The notes beneath the pieces were generated by a model, which ran no database searches, was not told the DNA's origin, and saw only the letters and a program-made list of their open reading frames with translations. A program made the position numbers and the translations under genes. Shown piece by piece: positions 37,465 through 62,952 of a stretch of DNA of 64,000 bases. Every line of letters starts with the position of its first letter. Position 1 is the stretch's first letter. Source of the DNA: Candidatus Iainarchaeum sp. (GTDB lineage: Archaea > Iainarchaeota > Iainarchaeia > Iainarchaeales > GCA-2688035); contig JAFCCO010000001.1 in assembly GCA_017610175.1 (NCBI GenBank), positions 1 through 64,000 on the forward strand, given 5' to 3'.

Positions 37465-38844
37465 TTACTGGACGCCTTTCCTCTGGTTTCTTGCCACAAC
37501 AAACGCGTATGCAATTATCAGCAATGCGACAACCATTAGCCCTGCAACCGTGTTTTGGTTTCCGAGAACTGCAAAGCCTGAGCCTGCAATTGCCCCGATT
37601 ATCTGCTGCTGGACTGTTTCCTCTTCCTCTGGTTCCTGGTTCTGCACTGGCTCTTCGTTTTGCTGTGTTTGCTGTGGAACTGTCTGCTGTACTGTTCCAA
37701 TAATTCTTGTGCTGTTCTTTGTGAGGCAGTTGCCTGCGTCAATTTCGTAGTATAGCGTGCTTGCGCTGTCTGCACTTACCTCAATTTGGTATGCGTTGCT
37801 CTTGAATCCTGAGGGGATTGAAAGCAACTGCGGCTCAACCCTTAAGCCGTTTCCGTAGAATCGAATGCTTGCCCTGAATGGGGTGTTGTTCTCAATTCTA
37901 AGTGAAACTTCTCCCCTTTCGTTGATTTCCTGTGTTGATGGTGCGGTGAAAATGAATCCGCTGCAGTAGGGGCTGTAAACCGGGAGTGAAGGGGTTGAGT
38001 CTATGAATGTAGCCTCTTCCTTTTCCTCAATGTTTACATAAAAGTCCCTTGCGTTCTGCTCAAGTGTGCATGTTGCTTCGTCTTGGAAATGGCCCCTTAC
38101 CTTAATGTATGCTTTTTCGCGGCCTTCCTCTGCGTCACTGTAAGCCTTTACTTCCACTCCAATTGTGCCCACGCTGTTTGAGTATATTGTTCTGTCATAT
38201 CCGTCGCTGTCTGACCTGATTTCTGAGCTGTTGTCGTATACGTCAACAAAGTCGATGTAGAATCTTTCATTTGCCCTGTTTTCGAGCGTAAATTCCTTGT
38301 TGACGGTTTTTCCTGCCTCAACCTTTACTGTGCTTGTTCCAAGCTCCAACTCATCACATTGTGGCCTGCCGTAAAAGTTGCCTTCCCCGTCGTTGTCCCA
38401 GTTGTCCTCTTCAACATCTATGTCAAAGTATTCCTTTCCGATTTCTGAGAAGCTGCAGTATTCGCCGTTTCCCTCAAATCTTCCCTTTAGTTCAATGCTT
38501 GCGTTAATTGTGTCGTCGTGGGTGAAGTTTTCGGTTTCAACCCTGATTCTGATTGTTTCCTCGTCATCCTCGTCAATTTCTGACGGGGTTCTGTTTACGC
38601 TGAGCCTGATTCTTGAATCGGCTGGCTCTTCGCTTAGCCTTACTGTTTCAACGTCAAAGTCCCTGTCCTCATAATTGTAAACTGTGAACTCAAAGTATTC
38701 CACTGTGTCCTCTGAAATAGTAATGTCCTCTGCATAAATTCTGATGTCTGAACAGTTTTCTCCTGAGGCACTCACGCCGCTTAAAAACAAGAGCAAAGTG
38801 AGCGCTATGATTGTGCGCTGAATAAGTTGGTTCATCATATTCAT
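37465..38844 (-). CDS. Secreted, C-terminally TM-anchored acidic surface protein with three Cys-containing modules
   Basis: Signal peptide TIIALTLLLFLSGVSA, D/E-rich ectodomain, PQQ/E-rich linker, C-terminal TM then RNQRKG. Confidence 0.85.
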   Translation of the reverse strand: MNMMNQLIQRTIIALTLLLFLSGVSASGENCSDIRIYAEDITISEDTVEYFEFTVYNYEDRDFDVETVRLSEEPADSRIRLSVNRTPSEIDEDDEETIRIRVETENFTHDDTINASIELKGRFEGNGEYCSFSEIGKEYFDIDVEEDNWDNDGEGNFYGRPQCDELELGTSTVKVEAGKTVNKEFTLENRANERFYIDFVDVYDNSSEIRSDSDGYDRTIYSNSVGTIGVEVKAYSDAEEGREKAYIKVRGHFQDEATCTLEQNARDFYVNIEEKEEATFIDSTPSLPVYSPYCSGFIFTAPSTQEINERGEVSLRIENNTPFRASIRFYGNGLRVEPQLLSIPSGFKSNAYQIEVSADSASTLYYEIDAGNCLTKNSTRIIGTVQQTVPQQTQQNEEPVQNQEPEEEETVQQQIIGAIAGSGFAVLGNQNTVAGLMVVALLIIAYAFVVARNQRKGVQ

Positions 38845-38860
38845 TTGTGCCCGAACTAGT

Positions 38861-38891
38861 ATTTAAAGGTTACTAATTCACGTAAATTAGT
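38861..38891 (-). promoter_or_regulatory. TATA box with adjacent 7-bp-arm dyad (operator candidate)
   Basis: ATTTAAA at 38861-38867; ACTAATT-cacgta-AATTAGT at 38872-38891 immediately upstream. Confidence 0.5.
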
Positions 38892-38901
38892 TAATTTAAG
38901 C

Positions 38902-38956
38902 CTGTTTTTTTGGGTTTTTGCCAGGGTGCTGCAACTGGCAGGCTCCCAAAAAACAG
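38902..38956 (-). terminator. Long intergenic hairpin downstream of rtcB
   Basis: CTGTTTTTTTGGG / CCCAAAAAACAG (12 bp, one bulge) enclosing TGCCAG/CTGGCA. Confidence 0.5.
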
Positions 38957-38964
38957 TGATTAAT

Positions 38965-40395
38965 TCAGCCCTTCATTACCGCAAGCGGAACGTGCTTTGA
39001 AACCTTTTTTCCAATCCCGCTTGCCTCAACACTTGCAATAACCTCTTCAACATCCTTGTATGCTTCAGGCATTTCCTCTGCAAGCCCTGACAACGACTTT
39101 CCCTTAATAATTTCTCCCTTTTCCTCAAGCTCTTTTTTTACCTGGTCGCCCCTCTTAAGTTTCATTGCAGCATGCCTTGACATTGTTCTCCCCGCCCCGT
39201 GCGCAACGCTTCCAAAGGTTTCCTTTAGCCCAGTTTGTGTCCCTACAAGAACGTAGGATGAGGTTCCCATCGTTCCTGGGATAAGTGCAGGGTGCCCTGT
39301 TTTCATGAATTCTGCTGGATTCTCTTCTCGCCCTGCCGGCATTGCCCTTGTTGCGCCCTTTCTGTGGACAAGGAGTTTTTTCTGCTCGCCGTTAATTTCA
39401 TGCATTTCCTCTTTTGCAACATTGTGGCATATGTCGTAGAGCAGTTCCATTCCAAGCGATTCAGCATCCCGCCCTATCACTTTCTCAAAGCTTTCTCTGA
39501 CCCAGTGCATTATCACCTGGCGGTTGCAGAAAGCGTAGTTTACGGCGCACTTCATTGCTTTGAGGTAATCCTGCCCTTCCTTGCTTTGGATTGGGGCACA
39601 GCAGAGCTGCTTGTCGGGAACGTTGATTCCGTACTTGTTCATCGCGCTAACCATTGTGTTCAGGTGGTCTGTTGCAACCTGGTGCCCGAAGCCGCGGCTT
39701 CCGCAGTGAATCATTATGGTAATCTGGCCCTGCTCCAGCCCGAATTTTTCCGCAATTTCCTTGTCAAATATGTCGCTTACTTTCTGGATTTCAAGGAAGT
39801 GGTTTCCTGAACCTAGCGTTCCAAACTGGGGCATTCCGCGGTGCAGTGCCTTGTCTGAAACCTTGGAGGCGTCAGCCCCGTCCATTTTCCCGTTTTCCTC
39901 GGTGTGCTTTAAATCGCGCTCCCATCCGTATCCGCGCTCAACAACGTAGGATGCTCCCTGCTCTAGAGCCTGCTTTAATTCATCTTCGCTGAGCCTTAGC
40001 TTGCTTTTTCCACCGACTCCTGCAGGGATTGCCCCGAACATTTCGTTTATCAGGTCCCGCAAATGAGGCTTGATTTCTTTTTCGGTTAAATTTGTTTTAA
40101 CCAAACGGACGCCGCAGTTTATGTCAAAACCAATGCCGCCAGGGCTAACAACTCCCTTTTCGTAATCGATTGCAGCAACCCCTCCTATGGGGAATCCGTA
40201 GCCCCAATGGCAGTCCGGGAGGGCTATGCTGTATTTTTGTATTCCTGGGAGGTAGGCAACGTTTTTTACCTGTTGAAGTGCGCCTGCTTCAATCTCGCTT
40301 GTAAGCTTTTCTGTCCCGTAAATTCTTGCCGGGACAAGCATTCCCTCTTCCTTGGGCAGTTCGAAAATAGCTTCGGAAATTTTTTTCATTTCCAT
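38965..40395 (-). CDS. rtcB: tRNA-splicing ligase RtcB (no intein seen)
   Basis: GGIGFDINCGVRLVKTNL, GSGNHFLEIQKV, IHCGSRGFGHQV, HGAGRTMSR motifs. Confidence 0.95.
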   Translation of the reverse strand: MEMKKISEAIFELPKEEGMLVPARIYGTEKLTSEIEAGALQQVKNVAYLPGIQKYSIALPDCHWGYGFPIGGVAAIDYEKGVVSPGGIGFDINCGVRLVKTNLTEKEIKPHLRDLINEMFGAIPAGVGGKSKLRLSEDELKQALEQGASYVVERGYGWERDLKHTEENGKMDGADASKVSDKALHRGMPQFGTLGSGNHFLEIQKVSDIFDKEIAEKFGLEQGQITIMIHCGSRGFGHQVATDHLNTMVSAMNKYGINVPDKQLCCAPIQSKEGQDYLKAMKCAVNYAFCNRQVIMHWVRESFEKVIGRDAESLGMELLYDICHNVAKEEMHEINGEQKKLLVHRKGATRAMPAGREENPAEFMKTGHPALIPGTMGTSSYVLVGTQTGLKETFGSVAHGAGRTMSRHAAMKLKRGDQVKKELEEKGEIIKGKSLSGLAEEMPEAYKDVEEVIASVEASGIGKKVSKHVPLAVMKG

Positions 40396-40407
40396 TTTTT
40401 TATCACC

Positions 40408-40830
40408 TTATATGTCAAGTAATACCCTCGAAACCCATTTATTTCCTTCTTTTTTGACGGAAAACTGGTTCCAGGTAACTGCCTTTATTTCCGAGCGGGG
40501 TTCGTGCCTTTCTGCGTCAAATTCCTCCCCCTCCAACTCTGCTTTTGCATAATTCCTGCCCTCGTCCAGCTCAAGAACCCTTATTTTGGAGAATGCGAGT
40601 TCTTTTGCGTGGAGTTCGAAGAGAATTGAATCCAATAAATTATGTAGAAGTTCCTCCGGGTTTTTGCCCTCTGCCTCTACTGTGAGCTTGGTTTTTCCCT
40701 CAACCTTTTCGGGGTTGTACATTACTGTGCACATTGCTTTTGCTGAGTTCTCAAAAAGTTCTGAAAGGTTTTCCCCGAATGCTTCAAATAGTGCGTCTGC
40801 AGTGTGTTCGAGGAACCTAAATCCTTTCAC
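40408..40830 (-). CDS. Archease
   Basis: FRFLEHTADALFEAFGENLSELFENSAKAM. Confidence 0.92.
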   Translation of the reverse strand: MKGFRFLEHTADALFEAFGENLSELFENSAKAMCTVMYNPEKVEGKTKLTVEAEGKNPEELLHNLLDSILFELHAKELAFSKIRVLELDEGRNYAKAELEGEEFDAERHEPRSEIKAVTWNQFSVKKEGNKWVSRVLLDI

Positions 40831-41702
40831 TACAGCACCCTTGAAAGGTCCATTATTTTTACATAGTCCTCAAGAGCTCTTTTTGTGTAGTCGTTGAGTT
40901 TCAGTTCCTTCAATGCAAGATTTGGCTTCATCCATTTGAATTCGGTGCCCTCTCGCTTGTCAAGCGTTACCTTTGTGTCCTTTGCCTTTGCAAGGTAGTC
41001 AATCATTACAAAGTGCTTTCTCTTGTGGAACTTTGTTGGAAAGATTGCGTCGTGCAGTGTAAAGAGTTTTTCATCGTGGATTTCCATTCCTGTTTCCTCT
41101 TTAACTTCCCTTCTCAAAGCATCAAGCCTTGTTTCGCCCTTTTCAATGTGCCCGCCTGGGACACTGTATAGGTCATTCCACTTCGGGCTCTTCATCAAAA
41201 AGATCTCGTTCTTTTCGTTAAAAATTAATGCTCCAACAACCGGTTCAGGAAAGCCCACTTCAATTGAGTCAATTTTTTCCACGCGATGTTTGTGCCTTTC
41301 GCCTTCTTTCTTTTCTCCGTGGAATGTGCTGTTCAAAAATATTTTCACAAGGTTTAGTGCGTCTCCCTTTTCAAGAACGCGTCCGCCCAGGCAAATCACG
41401 TTGGCGTTGTTGTGTTCCTTTGCGGCTTTTGCGGAGAACTCGTCCCATATTACCGCGGCGCGAATTCCTGCAACCTTGTTTGCTGCAATGCTCATCCCGA
41501 TTCCAGTGCCGCAGCAAAGTATTCCAACAGACTCCTTGTCATCTGCAACCTCTTTGGCCACTTTTTCTGCAAAATCAGGGTAGTCACAGCTTTCCTCCGA
41601 ACCGCATCCAAGGTCCTTTACTTTGTTGTCATTTTCAAGGCCTTTTTTGATGAACTCCTTGAGTTCAAATCCGCCGTGGTCTGATGCCAGTATTATATCC
41701 AT
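40830..41702 (-). CDS. Fusion: ribose-5-phosphate isomerase B (RpiB/LacAB) + Nudix hydrolase
   Basis: N-term ASDHGGFELKE...CCGTGIGMSIAANKVAGIRAA; C-term exact Nudix box GHIEKGETRLDALRREVKEETGM. Confidence 0.92.
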   Translation of the reverse strand: MDIILASDHGGFELKEFIKKGLENDNKVKDLGCGSEESCDYPDFAEKVAKEVADDKESVGILCCGTGIGMSIAANKVAGIRAAVIWDEFSAKAAKEHNNANVICLGGRVLEKGDALNLVKIFLNSTFHGEKKEGERHKHRVEKIDSIEVGFPEPVVGALIFNEKNEIFLMKSPKWNDLYSVPGGHIEKGETRLDALRREVKEETGMEIHDEKLFTLHDAIFPTKFHKRKHFVMIDYLAKAKDTKVTLDKREGTEFKWMKPNLALKELKLNDYTKRALEDYVKIMDLSRVL

Positions 41703-41778
41703 TTGGGGAACACCTTTTGAATTATTTTGTGCAAAGCGATGCTTAAAAATAAATGCGTTTTTGGGAGAAAAGGAGGGC

Positions 41779-42093
41779 TTATTCTTTGAGCTCTATTTCA
41801 ACGTGCACTGCTTCAGGGATTTCTACCCTCATTATTCTGCGAAGTGTCCTTTCGTCGGCTTCAATGTCCACAAGCCTTTTGTGTATGCGCAATTGCCACC
41901 TTTCGTAGGTTTCTGTTCCGCCTCCGCATGGGCTTTTTCTGGTTGGCACAATTAGTTTTTTGGTTGGGAGAGGTATTGCTCCTGAGTGCTTTACGCCTGT
42001 TCTTTCCGCAACCTCGAGAATTCTATTTGCAATCTCGGTTAATTGCTTGTAGTCCGGGCTTGTTAGCTTTATTCTTGCTTTTTGCATTTTCAA
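41779..42093 (-). CDS. rps10: Ribosomal protein S10
   Basis: [41 protein letters not shown]. Confidence 0.94.
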
Positions 42094-42131
42094 TACCTCT
42101 GCTTACCAAAATTTAAAAAAAATGGAAAATT

Positions 42132-42157
42132 GGAAAGCAATAACAACACTGCTTTCC
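42132..42157 (-). terminator. Hairpin + T-rich tract downstream of EF-1A
   Basis: Minus GGAAAGCA...TGCTTTCC (perfect 8 bp) then AATTTTCCATTTTTTTT. Confidence 0.6.
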
Positions 42158-42173
42158 TTTCCCTGTGTTCTAT

Positions 42174-43448
42174 TTATTTCTTTTCCCTTGGGGTTATTGA
42201 CAGTACAATTCCTGCTGCAACTGTCTGCCCCATGTCCCTTATTGCAAAGCGACCGAGCTGTGGGAATTTCTTGTATTCTTCAAGAACCACTGGCTTGGTT
42301 GGCACAATCTTTACGATTGCTGCGTCGCCTGTTTTCAGGAACTTAGGGTTTTCCTCTTTAACCTGCCCTGTCTTGGGGTCAAGTTTCTTCTGGATTTCAG
42401 TTATCGTGCATGACAACTGAGCTGTGTGCATGTGGAACACAGGTGTGTAGCCCACTGGGATTGCGGTCGGGTGTGACAATACAACAATTTGTGCTATAAA
42501 GTCCTTTACGATTGTTGGAGGGTCGCTCACGTGTCCGATTACGTCCCCTCTTGCAATGTCTCCCTTGCCAATTCCCCTTACGTTAAAGCCAACGTTGTCG
42601 CCTGGCTTTGCTTCGGGGAGCTGCTCGTGGTGCATTTCAATTGTTTTTACTTCGGTTGTTACGCCTGGCGGGTTAATTATTACCTTGTCGCCTGGCTTTA
42701 GGATTCCTGTCTCAACCCTTCCTACCGGGACAACTCCAACACCTTTGATGTTGTAAACGTCTTGGATTGGAAGCCTGAGTGGCTTGCCTGTTGGAAGCTC
42801 TGATGCTTTGAATTCGTCTAAAGCATCCATGAGTGTAGATCCTTTATGCCATGTCATCTTTTCACTTTTCTTGACGACATTGTCGCCAACCCAAGCCGAG
42901 ACCGGGATAAATTGGATCATGTTTTCCTTAAAGCCAACGCCTGTAAGGAGTTTTTTCATTGAGTCCTGGACTTCTTTGAATTTTGCCTCTTCGAAGTTGA
43001 CTTCGTCCATTTTGTTGATTGCGACGATTATCTGCTTCAGGCCCATGACCTGTGCAAGGAATGCGTGCTCCTTTGTCTGGGGCTGCACTCCCTCTTTAGC
43101 TGCAACAACCAAAACGGCTGCGTCAGCCTGTGAGGTTCCTGTAATCATGTTCTTTACAAAGTCTTTGTGTCCTGGGGCATCAATTATGGTAAAGTTGTTT
43201 TTCTTGCCCTCAAATCTCTTGTAGGCAACGTCGATTGTTACACCGCGCTCCCTTTCTTCCTTCAGGTTGTCCATTGCGTAAGCGAAGGCAAAGGTTCCTT
43301 TTCCCCTTTCCTGTGCTTCTGCTTCAAGCTTCCTGTACTCCTGCTCTGACAAAGCGCCCGAGTCGTAAAGGAGCCTTCCGACAAGTGTGCTTTTGCCGTG
43401 GTCGACGTGACCAATGAATACTAAGTTCAAGTGTGGTTTTTCTGCCAT
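42174..43448 (-). CDS. tuf: Elongation factor 1-alpha (aEF1A)
   Basis: [40 protein letters not shown]-type G domain. Confidence 0.95.
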
Positions 43449-43571
43449 TTCAATTACCTCCAATTATTAATTCGCCACCAATTCTTTCACTGGGGAAATT
43501 GGAAACCACTATTTATGATTTCCCCCCTGAAAACCTTTAAAAATCAATGCTTTAAGCCGTTTTAACCCTCT

Positions 43572-45764
43572 TTACTCCAGGAAAAAGTTGGCCGACTTAA
43601 CTGTCGAGTCCATGCCTTTTCTCTTTCTGACTTCCTCTGTCACCTGCTTTTGCAGTTCTTTTGGGAGTTGTTCGTAGCCTGCGTATTCCGCGGTCCAGAT
43701 TGCCCTTCCCTGGGTTGCTCCCCTAATGTCAGCAGAGAACCCAATGAGCTCTTTTACAGGTGCTTTGGCTATAATTATTGTTGTGTCGCCTTCAGTGTTC
43801 ATTTCAGTAATCTGGGTTCTTTTTGAGCCCAGTTCCTTTGTTACCGCACCCATGTAGTCCTGTGGGACCGAAATTGTCAGTGTTTGCTTTGGTTCCTTTA
43901 GGATTGGGTTTGCTGAAAGCATGCAGGCGTAAATTGTTCTTGTTGTCAGCGGGAGAATCTGTGCAGGCCCTCTGTGGATTGCGTCCTCGTGAAGGGTTGC
44001 GTCCTCAATGTACACAATAACTCCCATGCAATTTTCTTTTGCAAGTGGGCCGTTTTCCATTGCGTCGCTGAATCCCTGTATTACAAGTTCACGGATTTCG
44101 TGCAGTGCAACAATTCCCCTTGTTGTGTCAACAAGAAGGTTGTTGTTGTGCACAGCCCAGACCTTTCTTGATGTGTCCCGTCCAAATCCGCATTCTTCAA
44201 ATTGTGCAATCATTGCGGGGTCCTTTGGCTTTACTTTGCCCTGGATTTTCTTTTCCGCAAGTTTTTCAAACTGTTCCTGTGGCATGGGTTCAACGCTCAT
44301 TTTAAACTTGTTGTGCTTGTTTGGGCTTTTTCCCTCCAAAACCGGCGATTCTGCTGTTACGGTTTCCCTGTACACAACAATTGGCGGGCTCACGATGATT
44401 GGAATTTTGTGGTCGTGCTCAATTCTGTGCTGGGTAACTTCCAGGTGAAGCTCTCCCATTCCGGAAATAAGGTGTTCGCCTGTTTCCTGGTTTAAGCTGG
44501 CCACAACATTGGGGTCTTCTTTTGTAATTTGCCTGATAACTTCAATCAGTTTTGGCAAATCCTTTGTCTGCTTTGCTTCAACGCTTACGGTCATTACCGG
44601 TTCGGTTGAGCTCTTAAAGCTTTCAAACGGCAATATGTCCTGGCTTCCAAGTGTTTCTCCTGTAAAAACCTCTTTTAGGCCGACAATGCATGCAATGTTT
44701 CCCGCAGGCACCTCGTCAACAGTTACCCTTTCAGGGCCCATAAAGACTCCAACCTGCTGTATTGCAATTTCTTTCTTGCTTGTGATAAGTTTTACTTTAA
44801 GGCCTTGCTTCATTGTTCCTGAGTAAACACGGCCTGTTGCAATGTCTCCTGCGTGCGGGTCAACGCTGACATTCGTTACCATCATTGCAAATGGCCCTGT
44901 TTCATCGCATGTAAGCATTGCTTTTCCTGTTGCACTCTCTGCTTCCCCTTTCCAGATGTTTGGAATCCTGTATTTCTGTGCATCAATTGGGTTGGGGAGG
45001 TGGTTAATTACCATCTCAAGTATTGCTTTGTAAAGCGGGCTCTTTACTGCAAGCTCTTTTTGGGTGTCCTCTTTCATGTGCCTGTACACATCGGAGAAAC
45101 CGATTTTTGTTGCCTGCATCATGGGAACACTTACTGCCCAATTGTAGTATGCCGAACCAAATGCCACGCTTCCGTCTTCAACCTTAACGTTCCACTGTCC
45201 CTTTAATTTTTCAGGGGCGTTCTTGCTTATGAGGTTGTTTACTTTTGCAATTGTTTTGATAAATCTTTCCTGCATCTGCTTTTCGTCAAGCTGCAGTTCA
45301 CTAATTAGCCTGTCAACCTTGTTTATGAAAAGTGTTGGCTTTACGTTTTCCTTTAACGCCTGCCTGATAACTGTTTCTGTCTGGGGCATTGTTCCTTCCA
45401 CTGCGTCAACAACAACAATAACACCGTCAACGGCCCTCATTGCCCTGATGACGTCTCCGCCAAAGTCAACGTGTCCAGGGGTGTCAATTACGTTAATTAG
45501 GTATTTGTTGTCTTCGTATTCGTGAACAAGTGAAATGTTTGCCGCGTTGATTGTGATTCCTCTTTCCTGCTCAAGCTCGTATGAGTCCATGAAAAGCTGC
45601 TTTCCGGCAAGTTCTTTGCTGATTAATCCGGCTGCAGCAATGAGGTTGTCTGTCATTGTTGTTTTGCCGTGATCGATGTGTGCAACGATTCCGATGTTTC
45701 TGATATTTTTCCTGTTGCTCATAAGAGAGCTTGCAAGCTTAACCATTTCTTCTTTTCTGCCCAT
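43572..45764 (-). CDS. fusA: Elongation factor 2 (aEF2)
   Basis: IGIVAHIDHGKTTMTDNLIAAAG; diphthamide loop HEDAIHRGPAQILP. Confidence 0.95.
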   Translation of the reverse strand: MGRKEEMVKLASSLMSNRKNIRNIGIVAHIDHGKTTMTDNLIAAAGLISKELAGKQLFMDSYELEQERGITINAANISLVHEYEDNKYLINVIDTPGHVDFGGDVIRAMRAVDGVIVVVDAVEGTMPQTETVIRQALKENVKPTLFINKVDRLISELQLDEKQMQERFIKTIAKVNNLISKNAPEKLKGQWNVKVEDGSVAFGSAYYNWAVSVPMMQATKIGFSDVYRHMKEDTQKELAVKSPLYKAILEMVINHLPNPIDAQKYRIPNIWKGEAESATGKAMLTCDETGPFAMMVTNVSVDPHAGDIATGRVYSGTMKQGLKVKLITSKKEIAIQQVGVFMGPERVTVDEVPAGNIACIVGLKEVFTGETLGSQDILPFESFKSSTEPVMTVSVEAKQTKDLPKLIEVIRQITKEDPNVVASLNQETGEHLISGMGELHLEVTQHRIEHDHKIPIIVSPPIVVYRETVTAESPVLEGKSPNKHNKFKMSVEPMPQEQFEKLAEKKIQGKVKPKDPAMIAQFEECGFGRDTSRKVWAVHNNNLLVDTTRGIVALHEIRELVIQGFSDAMENGPLAKENCMGVIVYIEDATLHEDAIHRGPAQILPLTTRTIYACMLSANPILKEPKQTLTISVPQDYMGAVTKELGSKRTQITEMNTEGDTTIIIAKAPVKELIGFSADIRGATQGRAIWTAEYAGYEQLPKELQKQVTEEVRKRKGMDSTVKSANFFLE

Positions 45765-61824: not shown

Positions 61825-62952
61825 TTAATTTGCCCACTCTGCCATTCTTGCCTGCTTCAGGCCAGAGGCCTGAATAAATGGCCCTGCCCTTGCCATTATT
61901 GCCCCTGCCCGCTTCAAATCCATTTCCTCAATCTTTTTCTTGTGCTTCCGCAGCTGCAGAATCTTGTCCGCACTAACCGGCCCTATTCCCGGAACATGCA
62001 GGAGCTCTTCTTTGCTTGCGCAATTAATGTCAACAGGGAATCTGTTTGGATTGTTTAGTGCAACCGCAAACTTTACGTCCTTCACATTTCCAAAATTTTC
62101 CTCTTCGTTTAAGGCTAATTTCAATTCCTTCAGCCTGTAACCGTATACACGGAGCAGCCAGTCGCTTTGGTAGAAACGATGCTCCCTTGACGGCTCTTCC
62201 GCTTCCCTGCCCTCAAGCCCTGTTCCCTCAATGGGCTGGAAGGCAGAGAAATATGTGCGGTAGAGCTGTGTTTCATGGTAGAGCCTATCCATTTTACCAA
62301 GTATTTCCAAATCCGTTTCGCCCGCCGCCCCCAGAAGGAACTGGGTGGTAAAGCTTCGAAGAAGCCCCTTGCGCTTTATTTCGTTTATCCAGCGAAACCT
62401 TTTCTCCAAGTCGTTTGAATAATCCTTTGTGCTGCCAAGCAACTGCATTCTGCTACTGCTTGTTGCCTCCAAATTCAGTGACATTCTTGTTGCAAGCCCT
62501 GCCATTTCGTACACTAGGTGCTTTGACATCGTGGGCAAAACTTTCAAATGAATGTATCCCTTAAATTTGAATTTGTTCCGCAAAATTTTTGCACTTTCAA
62601 TCATTTTTTCGGCAGTTCTGTCAGCTTCCCCTGTTATTGCGGAACTTAGGAAAAGCCCGGCTACCTGCCCTGCCCTGTAAAGTGAGTTAAAGCTTTTTGC
62701 AACCTCGCCGGGGGCGAGTTCTGCTTTTCCCTTTGAACAGCTGCTGTTAACGCAGTACTTGCAGTCGTGAATGCAGGCATTGCTTTGCAGCACTTTCATT
62801 AACCTGCATTGCTCCGCGGTATTTGAGCAGTCGTGCACAAAGTTTGAGTATGAGGCGGGAATTTTGCTTTTGCGAAGGCTCTTTCTTTTATCGCCTCCGC
62901 ATGAATCCCATGAAGCGGCAGAGCCAAGCTTCTGCAGTTTTTCAAGAAGCAT
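61825..62952 (-). CDS. Putative DNA modification/repair radical SAM protein with C-terminal helix-hairpin-helix
   Basis: CIHDCKYC (CX3CX2C); C-term LLHVPGIGPVSADKILQLRK. Confidence 0.85.
   Translation of the reverse strand: MLLEKLQKLGSAASWDSCGGDKRKSLRKSKIPASYSNFVHDCSNTAEQCRLMKVLQSNACIHDCKYCVNSSCSKGKAELAPGEVAKSFNSLYRAGQVAGLFLSSAITGEADRTAEKMIESAKILRNKFKFKGYIHLKVLPTMSKHLVYEMAGLATRMSLNLEATSSSRMQLLGSTKDYSNDLEKRFRWINEIKRKGLLRSFTTQFLLGAAGETDLEILGKMDRLYHETQLYRTYFSAFQPIEGTGLEGREAEEPSREHRFYQSDWLLRVYGYRLKELKLALNEEENFGNVKDVKFAVALNNPNRFPVDINCASKEELLHVPGIGPVSADKILQLRKHKKKIEEMDLKRAGAIMARAGPFIQASGLKQARMAEWAN

Follow-up and report, generated by a model that had tools for sequence, protein, structure and literature searches.

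An archaeal ribose-5-phosphate isomerase B (RpiB) and a Nudix hydrolase domain are joined in one protein in Candidatus Iainarchaeum sp. The fusion is encoded in a 64,000-nucleotide stretch of DNA, the whole of which is called here the window, by a single 290-aa frame (40830-41702, minus strand) that begins with ATG and contains no internal stops. The presence of RpiB, Nudix and motif matches in one open reading frame is far beyond chance, and very probably the fusion is real and both of its halves are catalytic, as judged from their conserved residues. The best explanation, offered tentatively and at somewhat less than even probability, is a two-domain housekeeping enzyme in which a phosphopentose released by the Nudix half would be handled by the RpiB half. 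We place high confidence in the fusion and little in the proposed coupling. The features of the gene are the following:

40830..41702, minus strand: RpiB-Nudix fusion open reading frame, 290 aa
41271..41696, minus strand: RpiB (LacAB_rpiB) domain, residues 3-144 (PF02502, E 2.4e-54; aligns with the solved RpiBs 1o1x and 3he8)
41475..41513, minus strand: RpiB active-site motif CGTGIGMSIAANK, residues 64-76, conserved in fusions and relatives
41244..41270, minus strand: short interdomain junction, residues 145-153, without a conserved internal start codon
40890..41243, minus strand: Nudix domain, residues 154-271 (PF00293, E 3e-21; domain-alone model, pLDDT 91)
41085..41153, minus strand: Nudix box GHIEKGETRLDALRREVKEETGM, residues 184-206 (motif match)
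41037..41039, minus strand: X-loop proline P222, 16 residues after the Nudix box, a trait reported for ADP-ribose pyrophosphatases (PMC6856373)

The RpiB half scores 183.5 bits against PF02502 (curated cut-off 24.7) and 150.8 against TIGR01120 (cut-off 138.65). The segments SDHGG, DYPDF, CGTGIGMSIAANK, HNNAN and GERHKHRV all align with those of the solved RpiBs, and residues D8, H9, C64, G65, H97, R136 and R140 are invariant or nearly so in the alignment. C64, H97, R136 and R140 presumably represent the catalytic cysteine of the CGTG motif, the histidine of HNxxN and the phosphate-binding arginines. Compared with known RpiBs (PF02502; 1o1x, 3he8), the whole domain is present and the CGTG, HNNAN and RH..R segments align; the differences are the attached Nudix domain, the extra residues before GERHKHRV and the presence of RpiA in the same genome. 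Regarding the Nudix half, GHIEKGETRLDALRREVKEETGM is an exact match to GX5EX7REUXEEXGU; in two other fusions the box departs from this consensus at the last Gly only, and the Nudix glutamates are retained in all 12 aligned sequences. Structural conclusions were drawn from the model of the Nudix domain alone, which has a pLDDT of 91.1 and matches solved Nudix structures with probability 1.00. The full-length model, built on a thin alignment and mostly below pLDDT 50 in the Nudix half, was set aside. Like other Nudix hydrolases (PF00293; nearest solved structure 4kyx), this half has an intact box, the Nudix fold and the X-loop proline, and unlike them it is carried on an RpiB protein. The preliminary description of one 290-aa frame with an RpiB active site and a perfect Nudix box is thus confirmed, as both domains were matched and the box is exact.

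Among the 18 genomes of the family that were searched, full-length fusions occur in five, belonging to four genera, with 69-75% identity to the window protein, and they form a single clade in a five-marker tree (SH-aLRT 100). No other full-length RpiB-Nudix match was found among 389 archaeal genomes, in which separate RpiB and Nudix relatives are widespread; the search for this architecture across genomes therefore restricts it to one clade. Since the same full-length frame is open and uninterrupted in five separate assemblies, an assembly join or frameshift, named beforehand as a possible source of error, is ruled out; the other concern, inactive sites in relatives, did not materialize, the active-site motifs of both halves being retained. 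A separate Nudix protein made from an internal start was also rejected, since the junction region has no conserved start-like codon and, in one fusion genome (G001), none at all. Purifying selection appears to act on each half, with rough dN/dS ratios of about 0.09 (RpiB half; dN 0.11, dS 1.25) and 0.07 (Nudix half; dN 0.12, dS 1.74) for genomes G009 and G010, the sole pair in which dS could be estimated for both halves. These ratios are rough because dS values are high, dS being high or saturated in every pair. A scan of a genome contig collection returned only one distant Nudix match, no plasmid record spanned 80% of the query, and viral contigs matched Nudix relatives. The literature search found no paper on an RpiB-Nudix fusion. 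As far as the searches reached (389 archaeal genomes and papers), the architecture is new and its component enzymes are known.

The simplest account of the fusion is the joining of operon neighbours. Genomes G003 and G005, both from another genus of the family, have RpiB and Nudix as separate genes at the same locus, in the order S10-RpiB-Nudix-archease-RtcB (the G005 contig starting at RpiB), and the RpiB stop is 29 bp from the Nudix start in both; therefore the fusion most likely represents such neighbours joined together. Four further genomes (G004, G007, G008 and G012) have archease directly after RpiB, and two of these (G004 and G007) carry the orthologous Nudix gene elsewhere. A tree test of a single origin, in which the RpiB-linked Nudix domains were constrained together, gave a p-AU of 0.53; these domains may have arisen once or more than once. 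According to this account, a single in-frame joining of adjacent rpiB and Nudix hydrolase genes would have taken place in the ancestor of the four genera, at the end of the str operon, resulting in the order S12-S7-EF2-EF1A-S10-[RpiB-Nudix]-archease-RtcB. What is probably the unfused precursor survives in a different genus of the same family.

The genes surrounding the fusion in the window are:

40408..40830, minus strand: archease gene, one base of which also belongs to the stop codon of the fusion
38965..40395, minus strand: RtcB RNA ligase gene (family match)
41779..42093, minus strand: ribosomal protein S10 gene, closing the str operon (identified by its sequence and its position after EF-1alpha; order conserved in relatives)
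42174..43463, minus strand: EF-1alpha gene (sequence and gene order)
43572..45764, minus strand: EF-2 gene (sequence and gene order)

The upstream side of the fusion comprises S10, EF-1alpha, EF-2, S7 and S12, that is, the str operon, all named by sequence and order and not by family search. The archease gene starts with GTG, one base being common to the fusion stop codon, and these two codons overlap or adjoin in each of the five genomes with the fusion. This suggests translational coupling of the fusion with archease, which by itself is no demonstration of a shared function. RpiB closes the str operon in some families. In three families (f1, f5 and f16) archease is its immediate neighbour, and the two are about 1.4 kb apart in G019. 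In several other families RpiB is found beside PCNA and primase genes (one locus, L115, was confirmed with Pfam), and at locus L107 archease-RtcB follows S10 with no intervening RpiB. Archease-RtcB is an operon already known from diverse bacteria and archaea (PMC3973293); the window resembles this tRNA splicing operon in the adjacency of the two genes and differs in that they follow S10 and the rpiB(-Nudix) gene, the tie to RpiB being positional. No Rfam match was obtained within 38800-43600. Of the RNA-repair link proposed at the outset, the overlap with archease and the proximity to RtcB stand; nothing beyond position was added to them, and RpiB elsewhere lies beside PCNA and primase genes.

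Other observations were made at these loci. In G001, an intein is present in the RtcB next to the fusion (L038:4324-7272; 982 aa; Pfam Intein_splicing, E 4e-15), and in G002 the fusion and RtcB are separated by an opposite-strand frame with a LAGLIDADG_3 domain (L037:5716-6606). In G030, a nucleotidyltransferase and HEPN pair, a known toxin-antitoxin layout, separates RpiB from archease and is encoded on the other strand (L103:3271-4079). In G045 (L115:3176-7629) and at similar loci of several families, RpiB has two PCNA genes and the primase genes as its flanking neighbours, a conserved setting for a sugar-phosphate isomerase. Downstream of RtcB, the window encodes a 459-aa protein (37465-38844) with no Pfam or NCBIfam match and with homologues at the same place in relatives. 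The protein at 61825-62952 of the window resembles TIGR03916, a putative DNA modification/repair radical SAM family (E 2.7e-80, below the cut-off), and downstream of the window there are genes similar to a membrane-bound hydrogenase or complex I module (L057:4070-8115; Complex1_49kDa, NiFeSe_Hases, Proton_antipo_M).

The preliminary description regarded RpiB as unusual in this organism, a view that did not hold. By our own count, RpiB is matched in 45 of the 87 genomes of the phylum, about half, and RpiA exceeds its cut-off in 39 of those 45, so RpiB accompanies RpiA instead of replacing it. RpiA is also encoded on the same contig as the fusion (G000:C13:91025-91516), which rules out the fused RpiB as the sole isomerase. 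A second RpiB is located between transketolase and ribulose-phosphate 3-epimerase in an operon-like run (G000:C8 / L050:11496-14430). The presence of transketolase and the epimerase in the genome was counted in favour of a pentose phosphate explanation. RpiA and the second RpiB can cover the isomerisation of ribose-5-phosphate, and the fused RpiB may therefore have another substrate. The histidine of HNNAN is kept in the fused RpiB, while the transketolase-linked copy has Asp there; the str-linked RpiBs of the family contain an insertion of 4-5 residues preceding the GERHKxRV segment. The RpiB half probably isomerises ribose-5-phosphate. Concerning Hps/Phi, the PHI model gave sub-cut-off matches only. 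The fusion is comparable to the archaeal pentose-phosphate fusions Hps-Phi and G6pd-Pgd, also made of archaeal sugar-phosphate enzymes, from which it differs in its partners; the word Nudix is absent from the main text of the survey that describes them (PMC11237513).

The substrate of the Nudix half can be approached through the X-loop. A proline 16 residues after the Nudix box is given in one study as the mark of ADP-ribose pyrophosphatases (PMC6856373), and by our count P222 is at this position; in another study the numbering starts at the box Gly, and P222 would then be one residue off (PMC10663502). The proline is present in all seven RpiB-linked Nudix domains versus three (G013, G140 and G152) of the 19 unlinked orthologues that could be read at this position (six from the family and 13 from wider genomes), counts that are not independent, as the sequences are related by descent. 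Its presence in every RpiB-linked domain makes an ADP-ribose coupling possible. Among solved relatives, the profile comparison ranks 4kyx first, a protein named ADP-ribose pyrophosphatase; the top fold matches are of mixed specificity (NudI, an Ap6A hydrolase, 4kyx and NUDX1), and Ap6A/Ap4A hydrolases are among the closest solved proteins overall. Family searches of the 18 family genomes, several of them incomplete assemblies, found neither Sir2 nor KptA, and both were discarded as suppliers of ADP-ribose derivatives; two of the 18 have Macro, the window genome not being one of them. The mixed specificity of the solved relatives and these absences, which rest on family searches, argue against the ADP-ribose coupling. 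In G016, the unlinked Nudix gene is immediately preceded by that of a thiamine-pyrophosphate oxidoreductase subunit (L052:6091-8124) that contains an intein (Intein_splicing, E 1e-14); in relatives this subunit has about 308-313 aa.

On this basis, the predicted reaction of the RpiB half is the interconversion of ribose-5-phosphate and ribulose-5-phosphate (or of a similar sugar phosphate), and that of the Nudix half is the hydrolysis of a nucleoside-diphosphate-linked compound. The latter reaction would release a phosphopentose, ADP-ribose being the best candidate substrate, and the RpiB half would pass it on to the non-oxidative pentose phosphate pathway. A route from ADP-ribose to ribose-5-phosphate and ribulose-5-phosphate through the two predicted enzyme halves is plausible. 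That the Nudix product actually feeds the RpiB half is possible and rather doubtful, and it is unlikely that the protein is a single-chain salvage enzyme whose Nudix half splits ADP-ribose into AMP and ribose-5-phosphate and hands this sugar phosphate directly to the RpiB site for conversion into ribulose-5-phosphate.

The fusion could also be an accident of adjacency, in which the intervening stop and start were lost between RpiB and a house-cleaning Nudix hydrolase of (d)NTP or ApnA type, with neither a shared substrate nor channelling. This possibility, to which we give a little under an even chance, agrees with the separate adjacent genes of G003 and G005, with NudI and ApnA hydrolases among the nearest folds and with the failure to find Sir2 and KptA in the family. 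The orthologous Nudix genes of other family members, located elsewhere by unrelated genes such as that of the thiamine-pyrophosphate oxidoreductase subunit, also fit with it. However, an accident does not easily account for an X-loop proline common to the RpiB-linked Nudix domains and absent from most unlinked ones, or for the retention of the fused form across four genera.

In another scenario, improbable in our opinion, RpiA would supply the ribose-5-phosphate isomerase, the RpiB half would act on a different sugar phosphate (e.g., allose-6-phosphate-like) and the Nudix half on a related nucleotide sugar. The frequent company of RpiA in RpiB-bearing genomes of the phylum (39 of 45) and the insertion before GERHKxRV in the str-linked RpiBs point in this direction, but the canonical motifs align with solved RpiBs, it is the fused RpiB that keeps the HNNAN histidine replaced by Asp in the transketolase-linked copy, and no pathway for another sugar was identified. 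A role in RNA repair or tRNA splicing together with archease and RtcB, for example in the removal of ADP-ribose caps or nucleotide by-products, is highly improbable. In favour of such a role, the removal of ADP-ribose caps from RNA is described for a Nudix protein of archaea (PMC10663502), the archease start overlaps or touches the fusion stop in every fusion genome, and the RpiB-archease order recurs in two other families of the order. Nonetheless, RpiB stands beside PCNA and primase genes in other families, archease-RtcB follows S10 without RpiB at L107, KptA was not found in the family, and archease-RtcB is already an operon by itself in diverse bacteria and archaea (PMC3973293).

The fusion is a minor variation on known enzymes. 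Whether the joining of two genes is the sign of a common pathway, here one in which the breakdown of ADP-ribose would supply pentose phosphates, can be tested on it in a simple way. Coupling of the two sites would be a pointer to an archaeal route of ADP-ribose salvage; without coupling, the protein would exemplify fusion by operon adjacency.
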